From: Planctomycetota bacterium
Lineage (GTDB): Bacteria > Planctomycetota > UBA1135 > GCA-002686595
Length of the DNA stretch: 64,000 bases
Reading direction: 5' to 3'
Assembly (NCBI GenBank): GCA_030746555.1
Contig: JASLMK010000023.1
Location: forward strand, 1 to 64,000
Both the position numbers and the translations under genes were made by a program. Positions 51,177-60,910 of this stretch are shown one piece after another. Under the pieces are notes generated by a model. The model ran no database searches. It saw only the letters and a program-made list of their open reading frames with translations, and had not been told where the DNA came from. Positions within the stretch are counted from its first letter, which is position 1. Every line of letters begins with the position of its first letter.

Positions 51177-51545
51177 CTAGCGGCGGCGCGCCGTCTTCTT
51201 CTTGGCCTTCTTCTTGGCCTTCTTCTTGGCCTTCTTCTTGGTCTTCTTCTTGGCCTTCTTCTTGGTCGCCTTCTTCTTGGCCTTCTTCTTGGCCTTCTTC
51301 TTGGTGGCCTTCTTCTTGGCCTTCTTCTTGGCCTTCTTCTTGGCCTTCTTCTTGGTGGCCTTCTTCTTGGCCCTCTTCTTGGTGGCCTTCTTCTTGGCCT
51401 TCTTCTTGGTCACCTTCTTCTTGGCCTTCTTCTTGGCCTTCTTCTTGGTCGTCCGCTTGGCGGCTTTCTTCTTGGTCTTGCGCTTCGCGGCCTTCTTGCG
51501 GGTGGTCTTCCGCTTGGCGGCCTTGCGCTTGGCTTTCTTGGCCAT
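51177..51545 (-). CDS. histone H1-like Lys/Ala repeat protein
   Basis: 122 aa from the ATG at 51545 (MAKKAKRKAAKRKTTRKK), with GAGGAG upstream. The whole chain is a near-regular array of 4-residue units (KKKA, KKAT, KKAK and variants) with Arg only at the two ends, like the C-terminal tail of histone H1 and the Hc1/AlgP-type bacterial proteins. It should be extended or helical and coat DNA through charge. The DNA is correspondingly repetitive (12-bp period), so the copy number of units is likely to vary between strains. The location beside HU supports a nucleoid role. Confidence 0.88.
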   Translation of the reverse strand: MAKKAKRKAAKRKTTRKKAAKRKTKKKAAKRTTKKKAKKKAKKKVTKKKAKKKATKKRAKKKATKKKAKKKAKKKAKKKATKKKAKKKAKKKATKKKAKKKTKKKAKKKAKKKAKKKTARRR

Positions 51546-52267
51546 CAGGAACTGTCTCCTCGATGTGTTTTCCGATCGGATGCGCCCCACGGGCGCAGAT
51601 TCCACGACATCAAGCGGTCGAATCGGTAGCGCCGGGGGAGTGCTTGCCCCGCTTCCACCGAGTTTTCGCCGCGTCCAGCACCCTCTGAGGGCACGGGGGC
51701 GATGTTCTGCCTCGGTTCATCGCGAGTGAGGCGCTCTCCGCCTCGTGGCGCGCACCCGGCCCCATTCTGGCGGATGCCCCCCCCACGAGACGGGCGGAGA
51801 GAGCCTCACCGCCTGGCCGACACCTCCTCTAAGCCATGCACAGAACGCTGCTTACGTTTGGCCTACAGACGGGCCGCACGCACCGGAGAGGTCGCGGGCA
51901 CCATCGAGGCGGCACCGGGACTGGCGGGATCCGCACCGTCGTGGGCACCCCTCGCCCCCCTACTCGGTAGCGACGGCTCGGGGCGTCACCGGGAGCAGCA
52001 CCATCATTCCCGTTTGCAGGATCATGCCCGCTTGCAAGGTCCTCTCGAACGCAACGGGAGCGCGTGTTTTTCCGACGATGTCCCCTCGCCTGGAACGAAA
52101 ACGCCACGGTTCGTTCGTGCGCGGGACCGGTCCGCCGGATACGAGGAAGGTCGGAGTGGTGGCGCGCGCACCCGTCCACAGCTTCTCAACAACGCGACCC
52201 GGGCCAGCAGCCCATCACCGCCCAGGGAACGGCAAGCCGGGTCCGCACGCGCGGACGACGCTTCCGC
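51546..52267. other. 722-bp gene-free stretch between the H1-like gene and rpmB
   Basis: No ORF here has protein-like composition on either strand, and base composition is less GC-rich than the surroundings in places (51550-51730, 52000-52080). I looked for tmRNA, SRP RNA and RNase P RNA signatures and found none. A short direct repeat (CCCGTTTGCAGG near 52008 and CCCGCTTGCAAGG near 52028) is present. It must contain the promoter of the H1-like gene and could hold a structured RNA that I cannot identify. Confidence 0.5.
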
Positions 52268-52673: not shown

Positions 52674-53180
52674 CTAGAAGAGGTCGTCGAGGGCCTTGGC
52701 GGCGCTGGAGGTGAAGTCCTCGGCCAGCCCCTCTCGGCCGTCACCGCCCGCCGGGCGTGAGGCGATCTCCCTCAAGAGGGCCTCGAGGTGCCCGCATCGC
52801 TCTCGGGCGTAGTAGCGCACGAGCCCCAGGTTCGAGCGCTCGTCGAACACGACCGTGAACAGGGCCCGGCCCCCGACGTGCTCGATCTGGACGCTCTCGC
52901 GCGCGCCCTGGTGGAACAGGGAGCTGAAGCTCTCCTCCCCCAGCAGGCGAGCCATCTCCCGCGTGGCCGCGAAGGACGCCGCCGCCAGGGCGGCCACGGA
53001 TTCTGGTGAGTGGGCCACGGACTCGCCGCGGCGCGTCACGAGGTGGCCGCTCTCGTCGATGAGCATCGCGCAACGCGCGCCGGAGGTCTCGAGGAACCCG
53101 TCCAGCTCGTGGTCGATGCGATCCACGTCGTCGGCGTAGAAGACCAGTCTGTCCGCTCGGAGTTGATCGTCTGAGACCAT
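52674..53180 (-). CDS. roadblock/LC7-domain protein (MglB-like), last gene of the GTPase operon
   Basis: 168 aa from ATG 53180, 11 bp after the GTPase stop. Residues ~20-125 have the roadblock/LC7 pattern: an N-terminal helix, LETSGARCAMLIDESGHLVT, a central helix AALAAASFAATREMARLLGE, and SVQIEHVGGRALFTVVFDER followed by the closing helix. A 40-residue acidic tail ends DDLF. In Myxococcus, MglB is the GTPase-activating partner of MglA and is a dimer of this fold. The same role is the natural guess here, directly downstream of the MglA-like gene. Confidence 0.85.
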   Translation of the reverse strand: MVSDDQLRADRLVFYADDVDRIDHELDGFLETSGARCAMLIDESGHLVTRRGESVAHSPESVAALAAASFAATREMARLLGEESFSSLFHQGARESVQIEHVGGRALFTVVFDERSNLGLVRYYARERCGHLEALLREIASRPAGGDGREGLAEDFTSSAAKALDDLF

Positions 53181-53191
53181 CGCGGGGTGTC

Positions 53192-54502
53192 CTACTGCAA
53201 GAAGGAGAGAGCCAGGCTGCCGAGGACAGCACCGAGGCCGACCGAGACGATGACGATCACGCCGGTCACCAGTGCGCTCTGGTGCCCAGGGCTCACGACC
53301 GGGGTCGGACGAGCAGCGCTCCGGCGAGCGGCGGCCTCGTCGGCGACTCCGAGCGGGTGCACGACGGCCCGAGGCGGCGGCGGAGCGACGAGATCGTGGT
53401 CGGGTTCCATCAGGGTGCGCGTGTCGGCGACCACGGGAGTGGCGGCGGCGGTGTGCGCGGCGTCGAGGCCCGGCTGCGGCGGTGGAGTCGCCGCCTGCGG
53501 AACGGAAGGGGTCGGCACGGAGGCGAGAGTGAGCGGCGCGGGGGGGGCGCAGGCCGGCGGCTGCGGCGCAGCCGGCGCCGGCTGCGACGGTTGCTCGGGC
53601 TCGGCGGCGCTCAGGCGGATCGAGGATCGCGCCGGCTGCGTAGTCGGCACGGGATGGGGCGCGGGGGCGGGAGGCGGGGCCTGCTGGGCAGCAGCGGGCG
53701 AGACAGGAAGCGGGATGGACGCCGGCTCCGTGGCCCGCGGATCGTCCTCGGCGGGCGCGGGCGCGGGCGCCGTCGACGAGGCTTCGGCCGCCACGGGTGC
53801 CACGGGGGGCATCGCGGCGCCGGCGGGTGCCTGAGCAACCGCCGGTGCGACAGGGGCCGCCGCGGGCTGCGGGCTCGGCGCGGGAGCGACCGGCGCTCGG
53901 TCGGCGTTGGTCGACTGCTGCTGGCTGTGGATGCTCTCGAGGACCGCGGCCGCCAGGGCCTTGAGGGTCGGGAACACGCCCTGCCCGGTGTGCGCCGTCG
54001 CCTCGAAGCTCCGCAGGCCGCGCGGGTTGAGCTCCCGCTCGAGCGACTCGATCGGCAAGGCGTCGGTCAGATCGCGCTTGTTGTACTGGATGACCATCGG
54101 CAGGTCGGCGAGCGAGCGCCCGTACTCGGCCATGTTCGCTTCGAGGTTGCGCAGGGACTCGAGGTTCTCCTCCACCATCGAGGCGGACGAGTCGGCGACG
54201 AAGATCACGCCGTCCACCCCCTGCAACACGAGCTTGCGCGTCGAGTTGTAGTAGACCTGCCCGGGCACGGTGTAGATCTGGAAGCAGGTCTTCATCCCCG
54301 CCACGGTGCCGAGGTCGAGGGGCATGAAGTCGAAGAAGAGCGTGCGGTCGCCGTCGGTGCTGATGCTGGTCAGCTCGCCACGGTTCTCCTGGGGTGCACG
54401 CTGGTGAACGACCTCGAGGTTGGTCGTCTTCCCGGACATCCCGGGGCCGTAGTAGACGACTTTCGCGTTCACCTGCTTCTGAGCGAAGTTGATCTGGACC
54501 AT
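53192..54502 (-). CDS. MglA-type Ras-like GTPase with Pro/Ala linker and C-terminal membrane anchor
   Basis: 436 aa; MglA itself is about 195. Residues 1-195 are a complete small GTPase: P-loop GPGMSGKTTN (19-28), switch I region with STDGDRTLFFDFMP, G3 TVPGQVYYNSTRK (Gly-Gln in place of the Ras Asp-x-x-Gly), FVADSSA, and G4 NKRD (141-144). Then comes a roughly 210-residue linker almost entirely of Pro, Ala, Gln, Thr and Val, and finally one hydrophobic helix (ALVTGVIVIVSVGLGAVLGS) at the extreme C-terminus. The enzyme domain should therefore hang from the membrane on a long tether. ATG 54502 directly abuts the stop of the upstream roadblock gene. Known MglA proteins are soluble, so this is an unusual form. 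Confidence 0.92.
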   Translation of the reverse strand: MVQINFAQKQVNAKVVYYGPGMSGKTTNLEVVHQRAPQENRGELTSISTDGDRTLFFDFMPLDLGTVAGMKTCFQIYTVPGQVYYNSTRKLVLQGVDGVIFVADSSASMVEENLESLRNLEANMAEYGRSLADLPMVIQYNKRDLTDALPIESLERELNPRGLRSFEATAHTGQGVFPTLKALAAAVLESIHSQQQSTNADRAPVAPAPSPQPAAAPVAPAVAQAPAGAAMPPVAPVAAEASSTAPAPAPAEDDPRATEPASIPLPVSPAAAQQAPPPAPAPHPVPTTQPARSSIRLSAAEPEQPSQPAPAAPQPPACAPPAPLTLASVPTPSVPQAATPPPQPGLDAAHTAAATPVVADTRTLMEPDHDLVAPPPPRAVVHPLGVADEAAARRSAARPTPVVSPGHQSALVTGVIVIVSVGLGAVLGSLALSFLQ

Positions 54503-55006
54503 CTAGCTGTTCCTGCTTGATTCGGGGACCGAGTCGCCCGTCCTGTCGAGCCAGCCCGTCCCTCCAGGAGGCGACGGGCACGCCCCCGGGAACGCTTCCC
54601 GAGGTGTTCTGAGCCCCGCGGCGGCGGGCGGGTCGTCGGGCGCCGAGTCCGCCGGTCGGCGACGATGGCGGGCCAGCCGGGCAGCCGCGGCCTCCATGGG
54701 CAGGCGCAGCTCCCGTGGGGCGGCGCCACGCTCGAGCACGACCGCGAGGATGGCATGGTGGGCTGCGAGCAGGATCAACCCGCCGCGCTGGGCGCGCATC
54801 ACGGCGCGGGAGGGCACGCCCCAGGCGAGGGGATCCAAGTCGCGCTCGATGCCCTGCATCCAGCCCGCCGCAAGCGCGGCCACCGAGGCCGCGAGCGCCT
54901 CGTCCACCCCCGGTTGCGCCGCCGCGATCAGCACGCCGTCGGGAGCCACGAGCAGGGCGTGGCGCACGCCAGGCTCGCGAGTCAGGGCATCGAGGACCTC
55001 GTTCAT
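54503..55006 (-). CDS. second roadblock/LC7-like protein
   Basis: 167 aa. ATG 55006 overlaps the stop of the TPR gene (ATGA) and its own stop abuts the GTPase start. Residues 1-110 fit the roadblock fold: VLDALTREPGVRHALLVAPD, GVDEALAASVAALAAGW (central helix), SRAVMRAQRGGLILLAAHHA and ILAVVLERGAAPRELRLPME. A basic then Pro-rich tail follows. It is more divergent from MglB than the 52674-53180 protein. Two different roadblock proteins flanking one GTPase suggests a heteromeric regulator. Confidence 0.75.
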   Translation of the reverse strand: MNEVLDALTREPGVRHALLVAPDGVLIAAAQPGVDEALAASVAALAAGWMQGIERDLDPLAWGVPSRAVMRAQRGGLILLAAHHAILAVVLERGAAPRELRLPMEAAAARLARHRRRPADSAPDDPPAAAGLRTPREAFPGACPSPPGGTGWLDRTGDSVPESSRNS

Positions 55007-56085
55007 GCCGATTCTCCCTGCTCGCCGGACTCCCCGGCGAGCTCCTCCACCGCCCGCACGTGGGCCCGCTGCGGCTGCTCGGTGGTCCACACGGCTCCGG
55101 CGCCCACCTCGCCGGCGGCGAAGGCGAGGGTTCCGAACTCCCCCTCTACCTGCGCGAAGTGCAGCTGCCCGAGGCCGAGCTTTCGGGCCGCCGAGCGCGA
55201 GTGGTCGATCACGTCCCGTACACAGCGAGCCGTCCGCTCCGCCGTCGCGCCGCGCTGCCCCTGAACGAGCGCCGTTGCGCCGCGCACGTAGAAGGCCGCC
55301 CGAACACCGACGTCGGAGGCCAGGGCCTTGAGGGTGGGACGCACCGACCTCTCGGTCGCCCGCTGGGGGGCGTCACCGGTCTCGTCCGCCAACCGTCCAG
55401 TCCGCTCCACGGTTCGCAAGGCCTCGTCCACGTCCCCACCCTGCTCGGCGAGGGAAGCGACGGTCCGAAAGCGCGCCTCGAGCGCCGGGTCGCCGGGCAA
55501 CAGCTCCAACATGCGGGCCACGGTGCGGCGGGCCTCGATCCAGGCTCCGGCACGGGAAGCCAGGGCCAGGCGCAGTCGCAATGGCGCGAGCTCGCCGGGC
55601 ATGCAGGCCGCCGCCTCGTCCAACAAGGCGAAGGCCTCCTCGCCGTCGGCGCGCCGCCGGTCCGCAACGAAGCGCGCGACGCGCGCGTGCGCTCGGAAGA
55701 GGAGTGCCTCGGCGTCCTTCGGATTCGCAGCGCGCCACTCGCAGGCCGTCTCCTCGGCCCGCGCCACGCGGCCTGCCTCGAGGTGCAGCTCGCACAGCTC
55801 ACGCCAGACCGCCGGCCGCGGGGAGACGCGCATCTCCCCCTGGAGAGCACGCAGGCGATCCTCGCGCAACAGCTCGATGGTGCGGTCGAGCATCCGCCGC
55901 AGCTCGGTACTCTCGGGGTGGTTCTCCAGGCCTTCGGCGCAGATCCGGCGCACCTCCTCCAGCCTCCCGCTGGCCGCGTAGGCATGGGCCATGCGGGCGT
56001 AGTTGCGGGCGGAGGGATCCCGGGCGAGGATCCGGCCCGCGGCGCGTGTCCGCCCACGGGACAGGAAGCGTCCGAAGAGGGTCAC
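55003..56085 (-). CDS. TPR protein with C-terminal roadblock-like domain
   Basis: 360 aa from a GTG that overlaps the preceding stop (GTGA). Residues 20-235 are TPR-like helix pairs: ARNYARMAHAYAASGRLEEV, VWRELCELHLEAGRVARAEE, LFRAHARVARFVADRRRADG. Residues ~248-355 resemble the roadblock/profilin-like fold: PTLKALASDVGVRAAFYVRG, ATALVQGQ, a helix RTARCVRDVIDHSRSAARKL, FGTLAFAAGEVGAGAVWTTE and a last helix. No membrane segment. It is probably the scaffold that gathers the GTPase and roadblock proteins. Confidence 0.72.
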   Translation of the reverse strand: MTLFGRFLSRGRTRAAGRILARDPSARNYARMAHAYAASGRLEEVRRICAEGLENHPESTELRRMLDRTIELLREDRLRALQGEMRVSPRPAVWRELCELHLEAGRVARAEETACEWRAANPKDAEALLFRAHARVARFVADRRRADGEEAFALLDEAAACMPGELAPLRLRLALASRAGAWIEARRTVARMLELLPGDPALEARFRTVASLAEQGGDVDEALRTVERTGRLADETGDAPQRATERSVRPTLKALASDVGVRAAFYVRGATALVQGQRGATAERTARCVRDVIDHSRSAARKLGLGQLHFAQVEGEFGTLAFAAGEVGAGAVWTTEQPQRAHVRAVEELAGESGEQGESA

Positions 56086-57164
56086 GGGCCCTCCTCGATG
56101 AACGCCTCGAGGGCCGCCAAGTCCGCGAGGACGCGCGGGGAGTGCTCCCAGTCCTCGGCCGCATTGGCCGCCGAACGCCGCATGTGGGCCAGGGCCGCCT
56201 GGAGCTCGCCGTTTTGGATGGCGAGCAAGCCGTGTTCGCGCGAGGCCTCGGCGACAAGCCGGCGCCGCTCGCGCTCGAGGGCTTCCGCGCGCGCCTTCTC
56301 CGCGACGCGCCCCTCCAGCTTCACGACGCGCTCTCCGAGCGCCCGAATCTCGCCGCGGCGGGCCAAACCGCCGAGCCAGAGCCGGTTCTCGACCAGCATC
56401 TCCTCCAGGCGCGCGTGGCGCTCGATCAGCTCCTCTCCCGAGGCGATGTCACTGGCTCCCGGCAGGCTTCTGTACTCCTCGTGGAGTTGGCGCTCCCGCA
56501 GAGCGAGGGAGGAGAGCAACCCCGCCACGGCCATCGCCCCGACCGCCAGCCGATGCCGACGAGAGGTGCGCCGGCGGCACTCCATCTGCTCGTAGCGCAG
56601 GTCCCTGATCATGCGCGCCACGTCGCGGCGCGTTCGGTCGTGCAGCAGGACCTCCTGGAGGGCGTTGATCGCGTCCTTGTGGCGCCCATCGGCGGCCGCT
56701 TCCTCGGCGCGGCGCAGGTAACGCTCGACCATCTCCCCCACGTCCCCGTTGCGACGCAGGACACCGGCGAGGTCCTGCTCGACCTCGCGGGCCTCCGGCG
56801 CGTGCTGGGCGAGCACCTCCAGCACGCCGCGGGCGCGCTCCGCATCGCCCCGGTTCTCCAGCAAGGCCGCCAGCCTGCGGCCCTCCTCGATGAGGGAAAT
56901 GCGGTACTTGCGCAGAACGGGCGGATGCGCGATCCCCAAGATCAACAGGCTCTCCAGGCGGCGCACGTCTGACGGGTGGTCGCAGAGCCCCTCCACGAGG
57001 CAGCGCGCCAACAGGGCGGCCGTGCGGCGATCGAACTCCTCCGCGGCGTTCTGGATCTGGTCGGAGAGCTCGGGCCCGGTCCGGCCCTCGCTCTCCTCGG
57101 CCCCTATGAGGGTGTCGATCCACTCGTCGATGGACAGGCTCCCCAGGGTTGCTCTCGGGGTCAT
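56082..57164 (-). CDS. single-pass membrane protein with helical repeats and coiled coil; first gene of the GTPase operon
   Basis: 360 aa from ATG 57164 with GGAGAGGA a few bases upstream, the best start signal of the five genes. Residues 1-195 are all helical with TPR/ARM-like spacing (DVRRLESLLILGIAHPPVLR, HKDAINALQEVLLHDRTR). A basic stretch and one hydrophobic helix follow at about 204-222 (HRLAVGAMAVAGLLSSLAL), and then a long charged segment (225-350) with coiled-coil character. I do not recognise a family. Its place at the head of the operon, coupled through overlapping codons, suggests it anchors or senses for the GTPase module. Confidence 0.7.
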   Translation of the reverse strand: MTPRATLGSLSIDEWIDTLIGAEESEGRTGPELSDQIQNAAEEFDRRTAALLARCLVEGLCDHPSDVRRLESLLILGIAHPPVLRKYRISLIEEGRRLAALLENRGDAERARGVLEVLAQHAPEAREVEQDLAGVLRRNGDVGEMVERYLRRAEEAAADGRHKDAINALQEVLLHDRTRRDVARMIRDLRYEQMECRRRTSRRHRLAVGAMAVAGLLSSLALRERQLHEEYRSLPGASDIASGEELIERHARLEEMLVENRLWLGGLARRGEIRALGERVVKLEGRVAEKARAEALERERRRLVAEASREHGLLAIQNGELQAALAHMRRSAANAAEDWEHSPRVLADLAALEAFIEEGP

Positions 57165-57379: not shown

Positions 57380-60300
57380 CTAGAGCTCGGGGGTCACGCT
57401 CAGGGCTCCCGCCGTGTTGCGCGCGGGGTCGGGAAGCCCTGCGGCAAGGTCCAGCCAGTCGCCCTCCTCGAGCGCCTCGAGCATCACCACGCGCACGTAG
57501 TTGGGGTCGACGTCGAGCACGCCCGCGATCACCTGCCCCGCCGAAGCGGACCAGTTGAGGGCGTCGGTGGCGAAGTTCATGTCCACGTCCTCGTCGAACA
57601 GGACGTCCACGATCAGGCCGCTGGAATCCTCGTCACGGTTGACGAAGGCCGCGGCGATCCCCGGCGCGTCCGCGTCGCCGACGATCGTCCCGTTGAGGGG
57701 GACGGGCGTCGAGGACATGGCGTTACCGCTGTGGTCGGCGACGTTGGCGACGGCAATCGTCAGGGACTGGTTCGGATCGAGGTCCGAGTCGACACCGAGG
57801 TGGATGTCGACCGAGTTTGACCCGCTGACGTAGCGTGCGAGCGCTCCGACCAGGCTGACGCTGTTGGCACCGTTCGTCACGGTGTAGTTCGACAGGTCCA
57901 AGGCGGTCACGACCTCCACGGGCTCATCGAAGGTGATGGAGACGAAGTCCCCGCCACGATTGGGAACCGACGTCCCGTCCACCGACACCAACAGCGGCGG
58001 GGCGGAATCCGATCCGGCGACGTTGTTCACCAGGGCGCCGGTGAAGTTCCCCGCGAGGTCGGTCATGCCAAAGGCGATCGGGAACCCGATCTGAGGTTCG
58101 ACCGCGAAAGACACCCGGACCACGCGCGGGCCCACGAGCACCGCGGTCTGGCCGAAGTTCCCGTTGTTGTAGTTGTAGTTCCCCGCGGTGGAGGCGTACT
58201 CGCGGTCGAGCGCCTCGTCGGCGCGGAACAGGAGGGAGAACGAGTCAGCGTCCATCCTCCGGATGCCGTCGACACCGACGCTGGGGTCGACGAGGTCACC
58301 GCTCACGCTGACACCCGGAACGGAGTCGGCGGCGCTCATGGAGACTCCCTGAGCGCTTTGGACGTCGTCCACCGACACGGTGTAGGCGTTGGGGACCTGC
58401 AGGTTGTCGGCGCTGAGGGAGTCCAACTCGATCGAGACGGTCGAGGGCTCCTGGAAACCGAAGCTCGCACCGGAGAGGTCGATCTCGGTTCCGCCGTCGG
58501 TGACCGTGTAGTTCGACCAGTCCGTGAGATCCCAGGGGCTCATGCCCCTGTCGAAGTCGATCGTGATGATGTCGTTCGACTCTCCCGAGCGCGCCTCGAG
58601 GACGTCGACACCGAGGTTCATCAGTGGCTCGGAGGGGTCCTCGGACGCGAGGGGCATGGCCGTGACCGGGAACATGTAGTTCCCGACGAGGTCCGTCGTC
58701 CCCCAGACGTCCAGCGTGTCGCCGGCGTTCACGGTGAAGCCGAAGCTCAGGCGCACGCCCAGCCCGTCGTCGAGCTCGACGGCCGAGGACGGCGTCCCGC
58801 GCAGGTTGCCGAGCGAGTCGCGCAGCACGTACCGGGTTCCCTCTACGTTGCCCAGCTCGTCCCACAGGTCGGCTACGCCCCAGCAGTGCTCGCTGAAACG
58901 CACGACGACCTCGTCGAGGACGATCGAGTCGCGCCAACCCGTGTGGGCCGCGGGCAGGTTCTCCTCGGCGACGACCATCCCGGTCAACGCCGCGCTGACC
59001 ACCTCGTTGCCGGCGATGTCACGCATGCCGGAGAGGGTGATGCTGTAGTCGTCGCCGCGCTGCAGGTTGACGCCGGTAGCGTCGGCGAAGACGAGGGTCG
59101 CCCGCCTCATGGTCGGGTCGTAGGAGATCGAGGCGCCGGTGGTGTTGACCGGCGTCCCGACCGGCGACTCGACGCTCCAGTTGGCATCGTCGATCGCCTC
59201 TGTGGCGATGATGTCGTCATTGAACGCAACGAGCAGTTCGTCGTTGTTGGCACCCTCGATGGCCGAGGCCGTGGCGTGGGTGGCCCGCGGGGGAGTCGAA
59301 TCGGTCGACGTGATCGTGATCGCCGTCTGCGGGGCGGCCATCACGTTGCCCGCCAGGTCCTCGAGGTTGGACACGGTCAGGGTGTGGTCCCCGGGCGTGG
59401 GAGGGGCGTCGGTCAGCACGCGCACCCGATCGAGCCCGGTCTGCAAGGTCGCGGCCAGTACGTTCACGCTCCCGCCAACGAACGTCCAGTTGGCGGCGTT
59501 CTCGGCCGCCGACTGCTCGACGTCCTCGGAGAGCGTGACCTCGATCGTCTTCCCGAACGGGTCGAGCGAGCGGTTCTGGATGGCGCTGGTCACGAAGACG
59601 TCGGATTCGTCACCCGAGACGACACCCGTGGCGCTGGCCGTGAAACTCTGGCCGTCGACGTCCAGGACTGCGAGGGCGTCGAACTGGTAGGCGTCACCGT
59701 TCTTCATGTCGAAGTCGAGGCCGACCCGGAGGGTCTTCTCGATGAAGTCGTAGGTCCAGGTCTGCCCGGCAGGGTCGACGGGAGTCCCGTCGACGGTGAG
59801 CGTCCAGTTCCCCGAGTCGACGGCGGCGTCGGGATCGAAGGCCTGGTCGAAGCTGAGCGAGAGGTAGTCCTCGCCCTCGTTCTCCACCGTGGTCGCCTCG
59901 CTGGCCGCAAACGCGTTCTCGACCGGGGCGAGCTGCACGATGTCCTGGGGACCCCCGGCGTGGAGGTTCCCGTGGACGTCGGTCAGGTTCAGCAGGGTCA
60001 CCTGGTCCACCCCGGGGATGACCGCGGTGGAGAAGGTCACGCGCAGGGTCTCGGGCGAGGGCTGGGTGACGTTCAGTGCGATGTCGGGCAGAGGCAGGAG
60101 GAAGTTCGTGACGCTCAAGCACGTCATCGGGTCCATGGCCTCGTCGAAGGTGAAGTCCAAGACGCGGCCGTACTCGTCCTCGACGAGGTTCTGAGCGGCG
60201 CCGTCGGGCACGAGGTTGGGCGAGGTGCTGTCCCCCGCGGCCGTCCCGTCGACCGGCAGGTCGGAGACGGCTACGTCCGCCACGCTCCACATCGACGCGA

Positions 60301-60910
60301 CGGCGACCTGGAACGAGGGGTGCAGGTTCGCGCCGCTGCCGAGAGTCAGCGAGGCGACCTGGGTCGCAACGTCGAAGTCGATGGTGCTTCCTGCGAGGTC
60401 GAGCGCCTGACCGTCGATCCACAGGAGCCAGTTCGCCGGATCGGTCGCCTGCTCGGGGACCACGCGCGCGCCGGAGAAGGAGACCTCCAACCAGTCGCCG
60501 CCGAGCCCGGGATTCTGGATCCCGTCGGTGACGCTGAAGGTGGGCGCAGCGCCGTCCGTCGTCGTCACGTCCACGAACCCGTCGTCGATCGCTCCGACTC
60601 CGGTGATGCGGACCTGGTGGGAGGGCGTGACGCGCTCGTCCCAAACGACGAGGAAGTCCGCGCCGGTGCTGGAGACGCTGGATGCGGACTGCCCGCCGCT
60701 GGCCTCGAAGTTGGCCGCCGCCGGCGCGGTGAGCGGCTCGGTGTCGAGGGTGACCCGGGTCGTCAGGCCGTCCGGATCGGCGGAGAGGTCCTGGGAGACG
60801 TGCTCGATGTTGATGTCCGCGCCCGCGGTGGACGAACCGCCGGAGCAGCCGGCCGCAAGGAACACGAGACCACAGGCGAAGAGGTGGGTGATGCCGGTGA
60901 GGCGCTTCAT
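57380..60910 (-). CDS. giant lipoprotein with repeated SbsA-type Ig-like domains
   Basis: 1176 aa. The signal peptide ends in the lipobox LAAGC (Cys22). The remainder is about ten repeats of roughly 100 residues with the SbsA/Big_5 Ig pattern: a strand such as LSLSFDQAFDPDAAVDSGNW, then YTVTDGGTEIDLSGASFGF, and a DLAGN-type loop (VTDLAGNFTGAL, LEDLAGNVMA). Repeats differ enough that none is a recent copy. Such proteins are extracellular stalks or S-layer-like matrix components. It follows the beta-propeller gene on the same strand after 252 bp. Confidence 0.85.
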   Translation of the reverse strand: MKRLTGITHLFACGLVFLAAGCSGGSSTAGADINIEHVSQDLSADPDGLTTRVTLDTEPLTAPAAANFEASGGQSASSVSSTGADFLVVWDERVTPSHQVRITGVGAIDDGFVDVTTTDGAAPTFSVTDGIQNPGLGGDWLEVSFSGARVVPEQATDPANWLLWIDGQALDLAGSTIDFDVATQVASLTLGSGANLHPSFQVAVASMWSVADVAVSDLPVDGTAAGDSTSPNLVPDGAAQNLVEDEYGRVLDFTFDEAMDPMTCLSVTNFLLPLPDIALNVTQPSPETLRVTFSTAVIPGVDQVTLLNLTDVHGNLHAGGPQDIVQLAPVENAFAASEATTVENEGEDYLSLSFDQAFDPDAAVDSGNWTLTVDGTPVDPAGQTWTYDFIEKTLRVGLDFDMKNGDAYQFDALAVLDVDGQSFTASATGVVSGDESDVFVTSAIQNRSLDPFGKTIEVTLSEDVEQSAAENAANWTFVGGSVNVLAATLQTGLDRVRVLTDAPPTPGDHTLTVSNLEDLAGNVMAAPQTAITITSTDSTPPRATHATASAIEGANNDELLVAFNDDIIATEAIDDANWSVESPVGTPVNTTGASISYDPTMRRATLVFADATGVNLQRGDDYSITLSGMRDIAGNEVVSAALTGMVVAEENLPAAHTGWRDSIVLDEVVVRFSEHCWGVADLWDELGNVEGTRYVLRDSLGNLRGTPSSAVELDDGLGVRLSFGFTVNAGDTLDVWGTTDLVGNYMFPVTAMPLASEDPSEPLMNLGVDVLEARSGESNDIITIDFDRGMSPWDLTDWSNYTVTDGGTEIDLSGASFGFQEPSTVSIELDSLSADNLQVPNAYTVSVDDVQSAQGVSMSAADSVPGVSVSGDLVDPSVGVDGIRRMDADSFSLLFRADEALDREYASTAGNYNYNNGNFGQTAVLVGPRVVRVSFAVEPQIGFPIAFGMTDLAGNFTGALVNNVAGSDSAPPLLVSVDGTSVPNRGGDFVSITFDEPVEVVTALDLSNYTVTNGANSVSLVGALARYVSGSNSVDIHLGVDSDLDPNQSLTIAVANVADHSGNAMSSTPVPLNGTIVGDADAPGIAAAFVNRDEDSSGLIVDVLFDEDVDMNFATDALNWSASAGQVIAGVLDVDPNYVRVVMLEALEEGDWLDLAAGLPDPARNTAGALSVTPEL

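Follow-up and report, generated by a model that had tools for sequence, protein, structure and literature searches.

The locus lies in the window, by which we mean the whole 64,000-nucleotide stretch of Planctomycetota DNA that was analysed. Positions 53192-54502 on the minus strand (stop codon included) hold an ATG-initiated open reading frame for a predicted membrane-tethered MglA of 436 aa, the sole MglA match in its own genome, which is 91% complete; no MglA-type protein was found when the same interval was read on the plus strand. The protein consists of a GTPase domain (residues 1-192; 53927-54502, minus strand), a Pro/Ala-rich linker (residues 193-408; 53279-53926, minus strand) and a predicted C-terminal transmembrane (TM) helix (residues 409-434; 53201-53278, minus strand) that is followed by only two residues.

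A first-pass annotation of the window had described an intact MglA-like GTPase, a Pro/Ala tether of about 210 residues and a single C-terminal transmembrane helix, and each of these descriptions held up. The P-loop (GPGMSGKTTN), the R53-T54 pair, TVPGQ (residues 78-82) and NKRD (141-144) are all present, and in a PDB sequence search residues 1-192 aligned end to end with the crystallised MglA of Thermus thermophilus (3t12, E 1.4e-68), with Myxococcus xanthus MglA matching the GTPase at E 1.8e-67. Pfam reported only Arf above its cut-off (E 2.9e-6), and NCBIfam gave zero matches above its cut-offs. In an AlphaFold2 model built from a 36-row alignment, the GTPase is folded to residue 200 and well predicted overall, with low confidence at residues 41-60; Foldseek searches with this model returned MglA structures at ranks 1-14 (E 4e-22 to 2e-18), and Ras came next. 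Residues 201-407 (207 residues) have no predicted secondary structure (block pLDDT 43-68), and proline or alanine accounts for 111 of the 215 residues from 196 to 410. A single helix, residues 408-435 (block pLDDT 85-91), closes the chain, and it is only at this end that 19-residue windows exceed a Kyte-Doolittle (KD) value of 1.4, peaking at 2.43. The protein begins directly with the GTPase and lacks an N-terminal signal sequence. By sequence and model, it would therefore qualify as a tail-anchored protein, having a single TM segment less than about 30 residues from the C-terminus, a cytosolic N-terminal domain and no signal peptide.

Directly downstream lies the gene for MglB (52674-53180, minus strand), a 168-aa roadblock protein (Robl_LC7, E 7e-10) with the motif ALDDLF in its C-terminal helix. 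A profile of 35 MglB sequences matched M. xanthus MglB (6izw) at E 4.4e-41 and aligned to the C-terminus, where ALDDLF corresponds to DIDNLF. The C-terminal helix of M. xanthus MglB is described as binding alpha5 of MglA and promoting exchange (PMC6785124, in the part drawn on here); the alpha5 lysines, a proposed contact of that helix, are mostly reduced to K181 in the anchored relatives. What the locus holds is an intact MglA/MglB pair with a leash and a predicted anchor on MglA. Three genes precede MglA on the same strand, each touching or overlapping the next. RBu (54503-55006), a second roadblock protein (Robl_LC7, E 2.3e-9), ends with its stop codon immediately ahead of the MglA start codon. 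TPR_RB (55003-56085), a TPR protein by Pfam, is assigned a C-terminal roadblock-type domain for which evidence in the window copy is weak: at an E cut-off of 0.01, Robl_LC7 was detected in 13 of the 42 members but not in the window copy, and the TPR_RB profile matched RBu at E 5.5e-4 with an hhalign probability of only 30% (0.4% against MglB). Its model (mean pLDDT 91.9) has the order H-EE-H-EEE-H at residues 245-349, and the matches listed by a fold search cover the TPR part; VIA-align with this model listed TPR-type structures and no roadblock entry, which carries no weight either way. TPR_TM (56082-57164) is a predicted bitopic membrane protein of the TPR family with a putative TM segment at about residues 204-222. 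A hydropathy peak falls near residues 194-237 in 33 of 35 members, at a KD value of only 1.48 in the window copy, and TPR repeats were detected in up to 31 of the 35, the window member having no Pfam match at E 0.01. The overlap of TPR_RB with RBu recurs across loci.

Further upstream, a gene for a predicted lipoprotein of 1176 aa (57380-60910, minus strand; LAAGC near the N-terminus, no Pfam match) keeps its place beside the MglA operon in relatives from the window's family; the 215 bp gap suggests that it may be a separate transcription unit. Scans for promoters and terminators gave nothing beyond chance expectation. Elsewhere in the genome (91% complete), no further Robl_LC7 match was found. 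Also on the minus strand, positions 51177-51605 encode a 142-aa Lys/Ala-repeat protein with no Pfam match, which we take to resemble histone H1-like proteins.

The search for other MglA proteins with a C-terminal TM helix that the first-pass annotation had proposed was carried out on relatives from Planctomycetota and other phyla. From 143 relatives, a contig scan retained 80 loci, mainly from Planctomycetota, and 60 further regions of the phylum were hand-picked from the top of the match list, with some short-frame ones; other loci were taken best-hit first. Removal of identical copies left 188 distinct proteins, of which 165 were complete (23 cut open reading frames excluded) and 150 came from Planctomycetota. 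MglA matches were present in 115 of 154 genomes of the window's class and in 155 of 294 genomes in a phylum-wide search. By hydropathy, a terminal TM helix was found in 125 of the 150 Planctomycetota proteins and an internal one in 5 more; because the loci were best matches or hand-picked, such proportions are not random samples. Against these 125 distinct proteins stand 0 of 59 from the control phyla described below. The remaining Planctomycetota proteins are 8 histidine-kinase fusions, 5 tailless forms and 7 others: one with a TPR tail (L194), three with basic amphipathic-type ends (L204, L217, L227) and three (L027, L028, L210) whose tails look like assembly errors. The kinase fusions and the last three were kept in the denominator of 150. 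Unanchored relatives in the same operon context, which the first-pass annotation had named as telling against its proposal, do exist, but they are few, namely the TPR-tailed protein and the three amphipathic-tailed ones; in the latter three, MglB still follows MglA.

The anchored form is spread over 36 different family codes among the terminal-TM rows of the tree and is present in the complete genomes of two cultured isolates, Poly30 and Pla163, presumably Saltatorellus ferox and Rohdeia mirabilis, respectively. Of the 120 anchored loci whose sequence extends far enough, 116 have MglB immediately after MglA; it is absent from that place in L131, L142, L233 and L235. Across the 125 proteins the linker ranges from 77 to 340 residues (median 156), and the chain ends 0-14 residues beyond the TM peak. 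Mean net charge is +2.2 over the 15 residues preceding the helix, compared to +0.3 after it; the preceding charge is the higher in 103 of 125 proteins, equal in 13 and lower in the rest, a bias that agrees with an N-in topology. For the tree, the 188 distinct proteins were reduced to 107 rows by removing cut open reading frames and near copies. The Planctomycetota forms make up one set of 87 rows (SH-aLRT 87, by a quick method that leaves many forks open).

Several Planctomycetota proteins depart from the usual form. The kinase fusions (L134-L141, about 560-625 aa) are second copies in families f2, f6 and f8, in which an MglA-like GTPase is joined to a histidine kinase; in L140, Arf/MglA at the N-terminus is followed by HisKA and HATPase_c, and seven rows of these fusions form one clade in the tree. 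In L215, L219, L222 and L229, three of which belong to family f17, the hydropathy peak is not terminal and 30-95 residues lie beyond it. L050 (6001-7752) and L146, both from one genome, have MglA, linker and TM in frame with MglB as a single 584-aa protein. If real, this fusion would put MglB beyond the membrane, and a lost stop codon or an assembly error is therefore likely. For family f7 of the window's class, which comprises 26 genomes (G094-G119), the matches listed contain a single weak MglA hit, in G113, and this near-absence is a natural loss.

Conservation is distributed very unevenly along the anchored proteins. K25, T26, R53, T54, the TVPGQ stretch at 78-82, N141, K142 and D144 are identical in 125 of 125, so that the intrinsic Arg adjoining the G2 Thr (R53-T54) is invariant. 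In a comparison of 1200 pairs, which took in 98 of the 125 proteins, GTPase identity was 0.65-0.83 by bin, while the linker reached 0.31-0.38 (0.29-0.32 when shuffled) and the TM segment 0.27-0.32 (0.24-0.26 when shuffled). Since the linker and the TM segment barely exceed shuffled identity, leash and anchor are kept as a property and not as a sequence.

A different kind of tail was found in Zixibacteria, where MglA occurs in 109 of 118 genomes. All 29 complete proteins fetched from that phylum have KKRGFFKRLFGIK or a close variant at the C-terminus. Adding those from the first scan gives 32 distinct complete proteins, and in every one the tail closes with a basic amphipathic-type motif; the preceding linker is 108-196 residues long and rich in A, P and S. 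The C-terminus GFFKRLFGIK resembles the end of E. coli K-12 MinD (KKGFLKRLFGG, translated here), and its agreement with the MinD-type pattern GFxKRLFG makes it a candidate membrane-targeting sequence. The MinD tail GFLKRLFGG is described as a membrane-targeting amphipathic helix, a single copy of which was reported to be too weak for significant binding (PMC8155659, in the part drawn on here), and the Zixibacteria tail may therefore need clustering. A PDB search with this tail did not find MinD. The Zixibacteria rows group together (SH-aLRT 96) apart from the 87 Planctomycetota rows, again by the quick method with many open forks. Because the two phyla separate in the tree, the TM anchor and the MinD-like anchor are likely, although unproven, to have had two independent origins.

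At the hydropathy threshold used for Planctomycetota, TM helices were found in none of 30 complete MglA proteins from Gemmatimonadota, all of 192-225 aa, and in none of 29 from Nitrospirota, of which 12 are short and the others have different tails. In 25 of the 30 Gemmatimonadota copies (L282-L306; 224-225 aa versus 192 aa), the last helix is preceded by an insertion of about 33 residues near residue 160. The long-tailed MglA proteins L318, L321, L322 and L326 of Nitrospirota end in a basic peptide like KKNKTMFQKFFGH, perhaps a third type of membrane-binding end, and L071, L075, L078, L081 and L310-L317 (Desulfuromonadales, Aminicenantes and Nitrospirota) have a small unassigned C-terminal domain or tail. 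The usual presence of the anchored form across the phylum, the MinD-like anchor of Zixibacteria and the adjoining MglB with its C-terminal helix were all unforeseen by the first-pass annotation.

From these data we consider it probable that the window gene encodes a catalytically normal MglA/MglB switch that is tail-anchored and confined to the inner membrane. The C-terminal helix would insert in the inner membrane, leaving the GTPase on its cytoplasmic side, and the disordered linker would allow the G domain to contact partners close to the membrane; by polymer estimate, this linker would span about 75 nm fully stretched and about 10-15 nm on average. The adjoining MglB may serve as GAP and exchange aid via its C-terminal helix, by analogy with M. 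xanthus. Where a GTPase unable to leave the membrane sits would depend on lateral diffusion and on capture by MglB dimers, TPR and roadblock partners, and effectors, in place of cytosolic exchange. In Zixibacteria a similar state would be reached through the MinD-type tail, whose membrane binding is probably reversible. The proposal in the first-pass annotation that the anchor is permanent stands as the natural reading, in view of the basic residues before the helix and the 0-14 residues after it, and as a prediction from sequence and model. What that annotation drew from the anchor, movement confined to the membrane or contact relayed over a long radius, is likewise a prediction, so that its interpretation is supported in part.

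Other explanations for the C-terminal helix can be weighed against the same data. The helix could be chiefly an interaction device that pairs with itself or with TPR_TM, so that the GTPase would be fixed in a membrane complex and not roaming. Small-xxx-small motifs exceed the shuffled expectation (36 GxxxG observed in anchored TM segments versus 22.6 expected, sd 4.4), although these counts come from phylogenetically non-independent rows; moreover, TPR_TM, for which a TM segment of its own is predicted, is encoded in the same operon, and the TPR_RB and RBu genes overlap. However, a TM identity near the shuffled level is unlike that of a specific interface, and TPR_TM was present at only 63 loci compared to 129 for TPR_RB and 183 for MglB (duplicates and short flanks included). 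We therefore regard helix pairing as the main function to be unlikely. Still less probable is a transmembrane relay, in which the part beyond the membrane would sense the periplasm and report to the G domain. It could draw on the five Planctomycetota proteins that continue past the TM segment, but the fifth, L050, runs in frame into the MglB gene that follows, leaving L215, L219, L222 and L229. In 125 of the 130 TM-bearing proteins the 0-14 residues after the helix are insufficient for sensing, and a disordered linker of 77-340 residues conveys no conformational signal.

A hydrophobic helix at the extreme C-terminus is also what a PEP-CTERM-like sorting or export signal would provide, with the protein ending up outside. 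This is very improbable, as the protein has no N-terminal signal sequence and no basic cluster follows the helix (mean +0.3), and as both the GTPase and MglB require GTP and the cytosol. Finally, the window derives from a MAG assembly, and the tails of L027, L028 and L210 resemble assembly errors, so a frameshift or read-through joining an ordinary MglA to unrelated sequence had to be considered, as the first-pass annotation had pointed out. No frameshift was found. The third-position GC of the linker and tail (0.83 and 0.85) agrees with a coding frame, and the nearest relative, L002, has the same architecture within one open frame. The architecture is repeated in 125 distinct proteins, including those of the complete isolate genomes, and we rejected the artefact, to which we give almost no weight.

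What the predicted membrane-confined switch controls is harder to say. Our best guess, held at somewhat less than even confidence, is the surface polarity of pili or of an adhesion/motility system. All 154 genomes of the class have PilT, with or without MglA, including the 26 of family f7; being universal there, it is uninformative and ties the anchored MglA to pili in no way. Since the window's own genome has PilM above the cut-off, pili are a possible client of the MglA switch, and the adjoining lipoprotein makes surface adhesion another. A broader proposal is speculative, and we think it doubtful in its full form: two phyla would have independently made MglA membrane-resident at the end of a long disordered tether, by means of a permanent TM anchor in one and, in the other, of a MinD-type helix that dips into the membrane. 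Together with TPR scaffolds and three roadblock-type proteins, MglA would form a membrane signalling platform that works like the eukaryotic Ras/Rag-roadblock systems; on it, sites of polarity or adhesion would form through diffusion in two dimensions and capture, with no cytosolic shuttling.

We found no description of a TM-bearing or amphipathic-tailed MglA in a literature search of open-licence PMC text, a corpus outside which most subscription papers and preprints fall. In the part drawn on here, the main survey of prokaryotic small GTPases, from 2014, left out of account any MglA-clade sequences longer than 240 aa, and 449 of the 488 sequences in its MglA subclade were shorter than that (PMC4316618). 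This may explain why the anchored MglA has gone unnoticed, and annotation built on that survey may miss the class. Models of MglA assume a soluble protein that binds to its sites and leaves them again. If MglA is usually tied to the membrane throughout a phylum, as predicted here, that phylum offers a natural test of whether on/off exchange is needed, and two cultured isolates carry this form. The Zixibacteria form would be its reversible counterpart. If borne out, these proteins would show bacteria reaching the Ras solution of a disordered C-terminal region plus a membrane anchor.

Compared with known systems, the window protein is closest to the Group 1 MglA proteins of M. xanthus, T. thermophilus and Bdellovibrio, as these are defined in the part of PMC4316618 drawn on here. 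It shares with them the homologous G domain, TVPGQ, the intrinsic Arg beside the G2 Thr and a coupled MglB, which the survey expects within four genes and which here is the next gene. However, Group 1 is limited there to single-domain proteins of 150-240 aa, with known members of 195-197 aa (PMC4316618), whereas the window protein has 436 aa and the Planctomycetota form adds a linker of 77-340 aa and a TM segment; it is therefore a Group 1 member by homology that falls outside the size definition. The window MglB has the roadblock domain and C-terminal helix motif in common with M. xanthus MglB (PMC6785124, in the same part). Unlike in M. xanthus, the gene order is MglA then MglB, and the operon contains further roadblock-type genes. 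E. coli MinD, whose GFLKRLFGG resembles the Zixibacteria MglA end, belongs to a different family, being a dimerising ATPase, and the window MglA has a TM segment instead. Ras, Rab and Rheb are likewise small GTPases held at the membrane through a variable C-terminal region, with a mode of attachment that has changed repeatedly; they differ in being eukaryotic, in having mostly lipid anchors and in lacking an adjoining roadblock GAP, and the Rheb forms with C-terminal TM segments include a SAR paralog with four of them (PMC5869587, in the part drawn on here). The conservons of Streptomyces (CvnA-D) offer a further likeness in that they combine an MglA-type GTPase, a roadblock protein and a membrane sensor (PMC13343842 and PMC4316618, each in part). 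No kinase was found by Pfam in the window operon, nor a counterpart of the sensor kinase CvnA; the membrane protein of conservons is a separate histidine kinase-like protein, unlike the window MglA, in which the predicted anchor belongs to the GTPase itself. Tail-anchored GTPases with a single C-terminal TM segment are familiar from Miro and Toc34, which are organellar and belong to other GTPase families.
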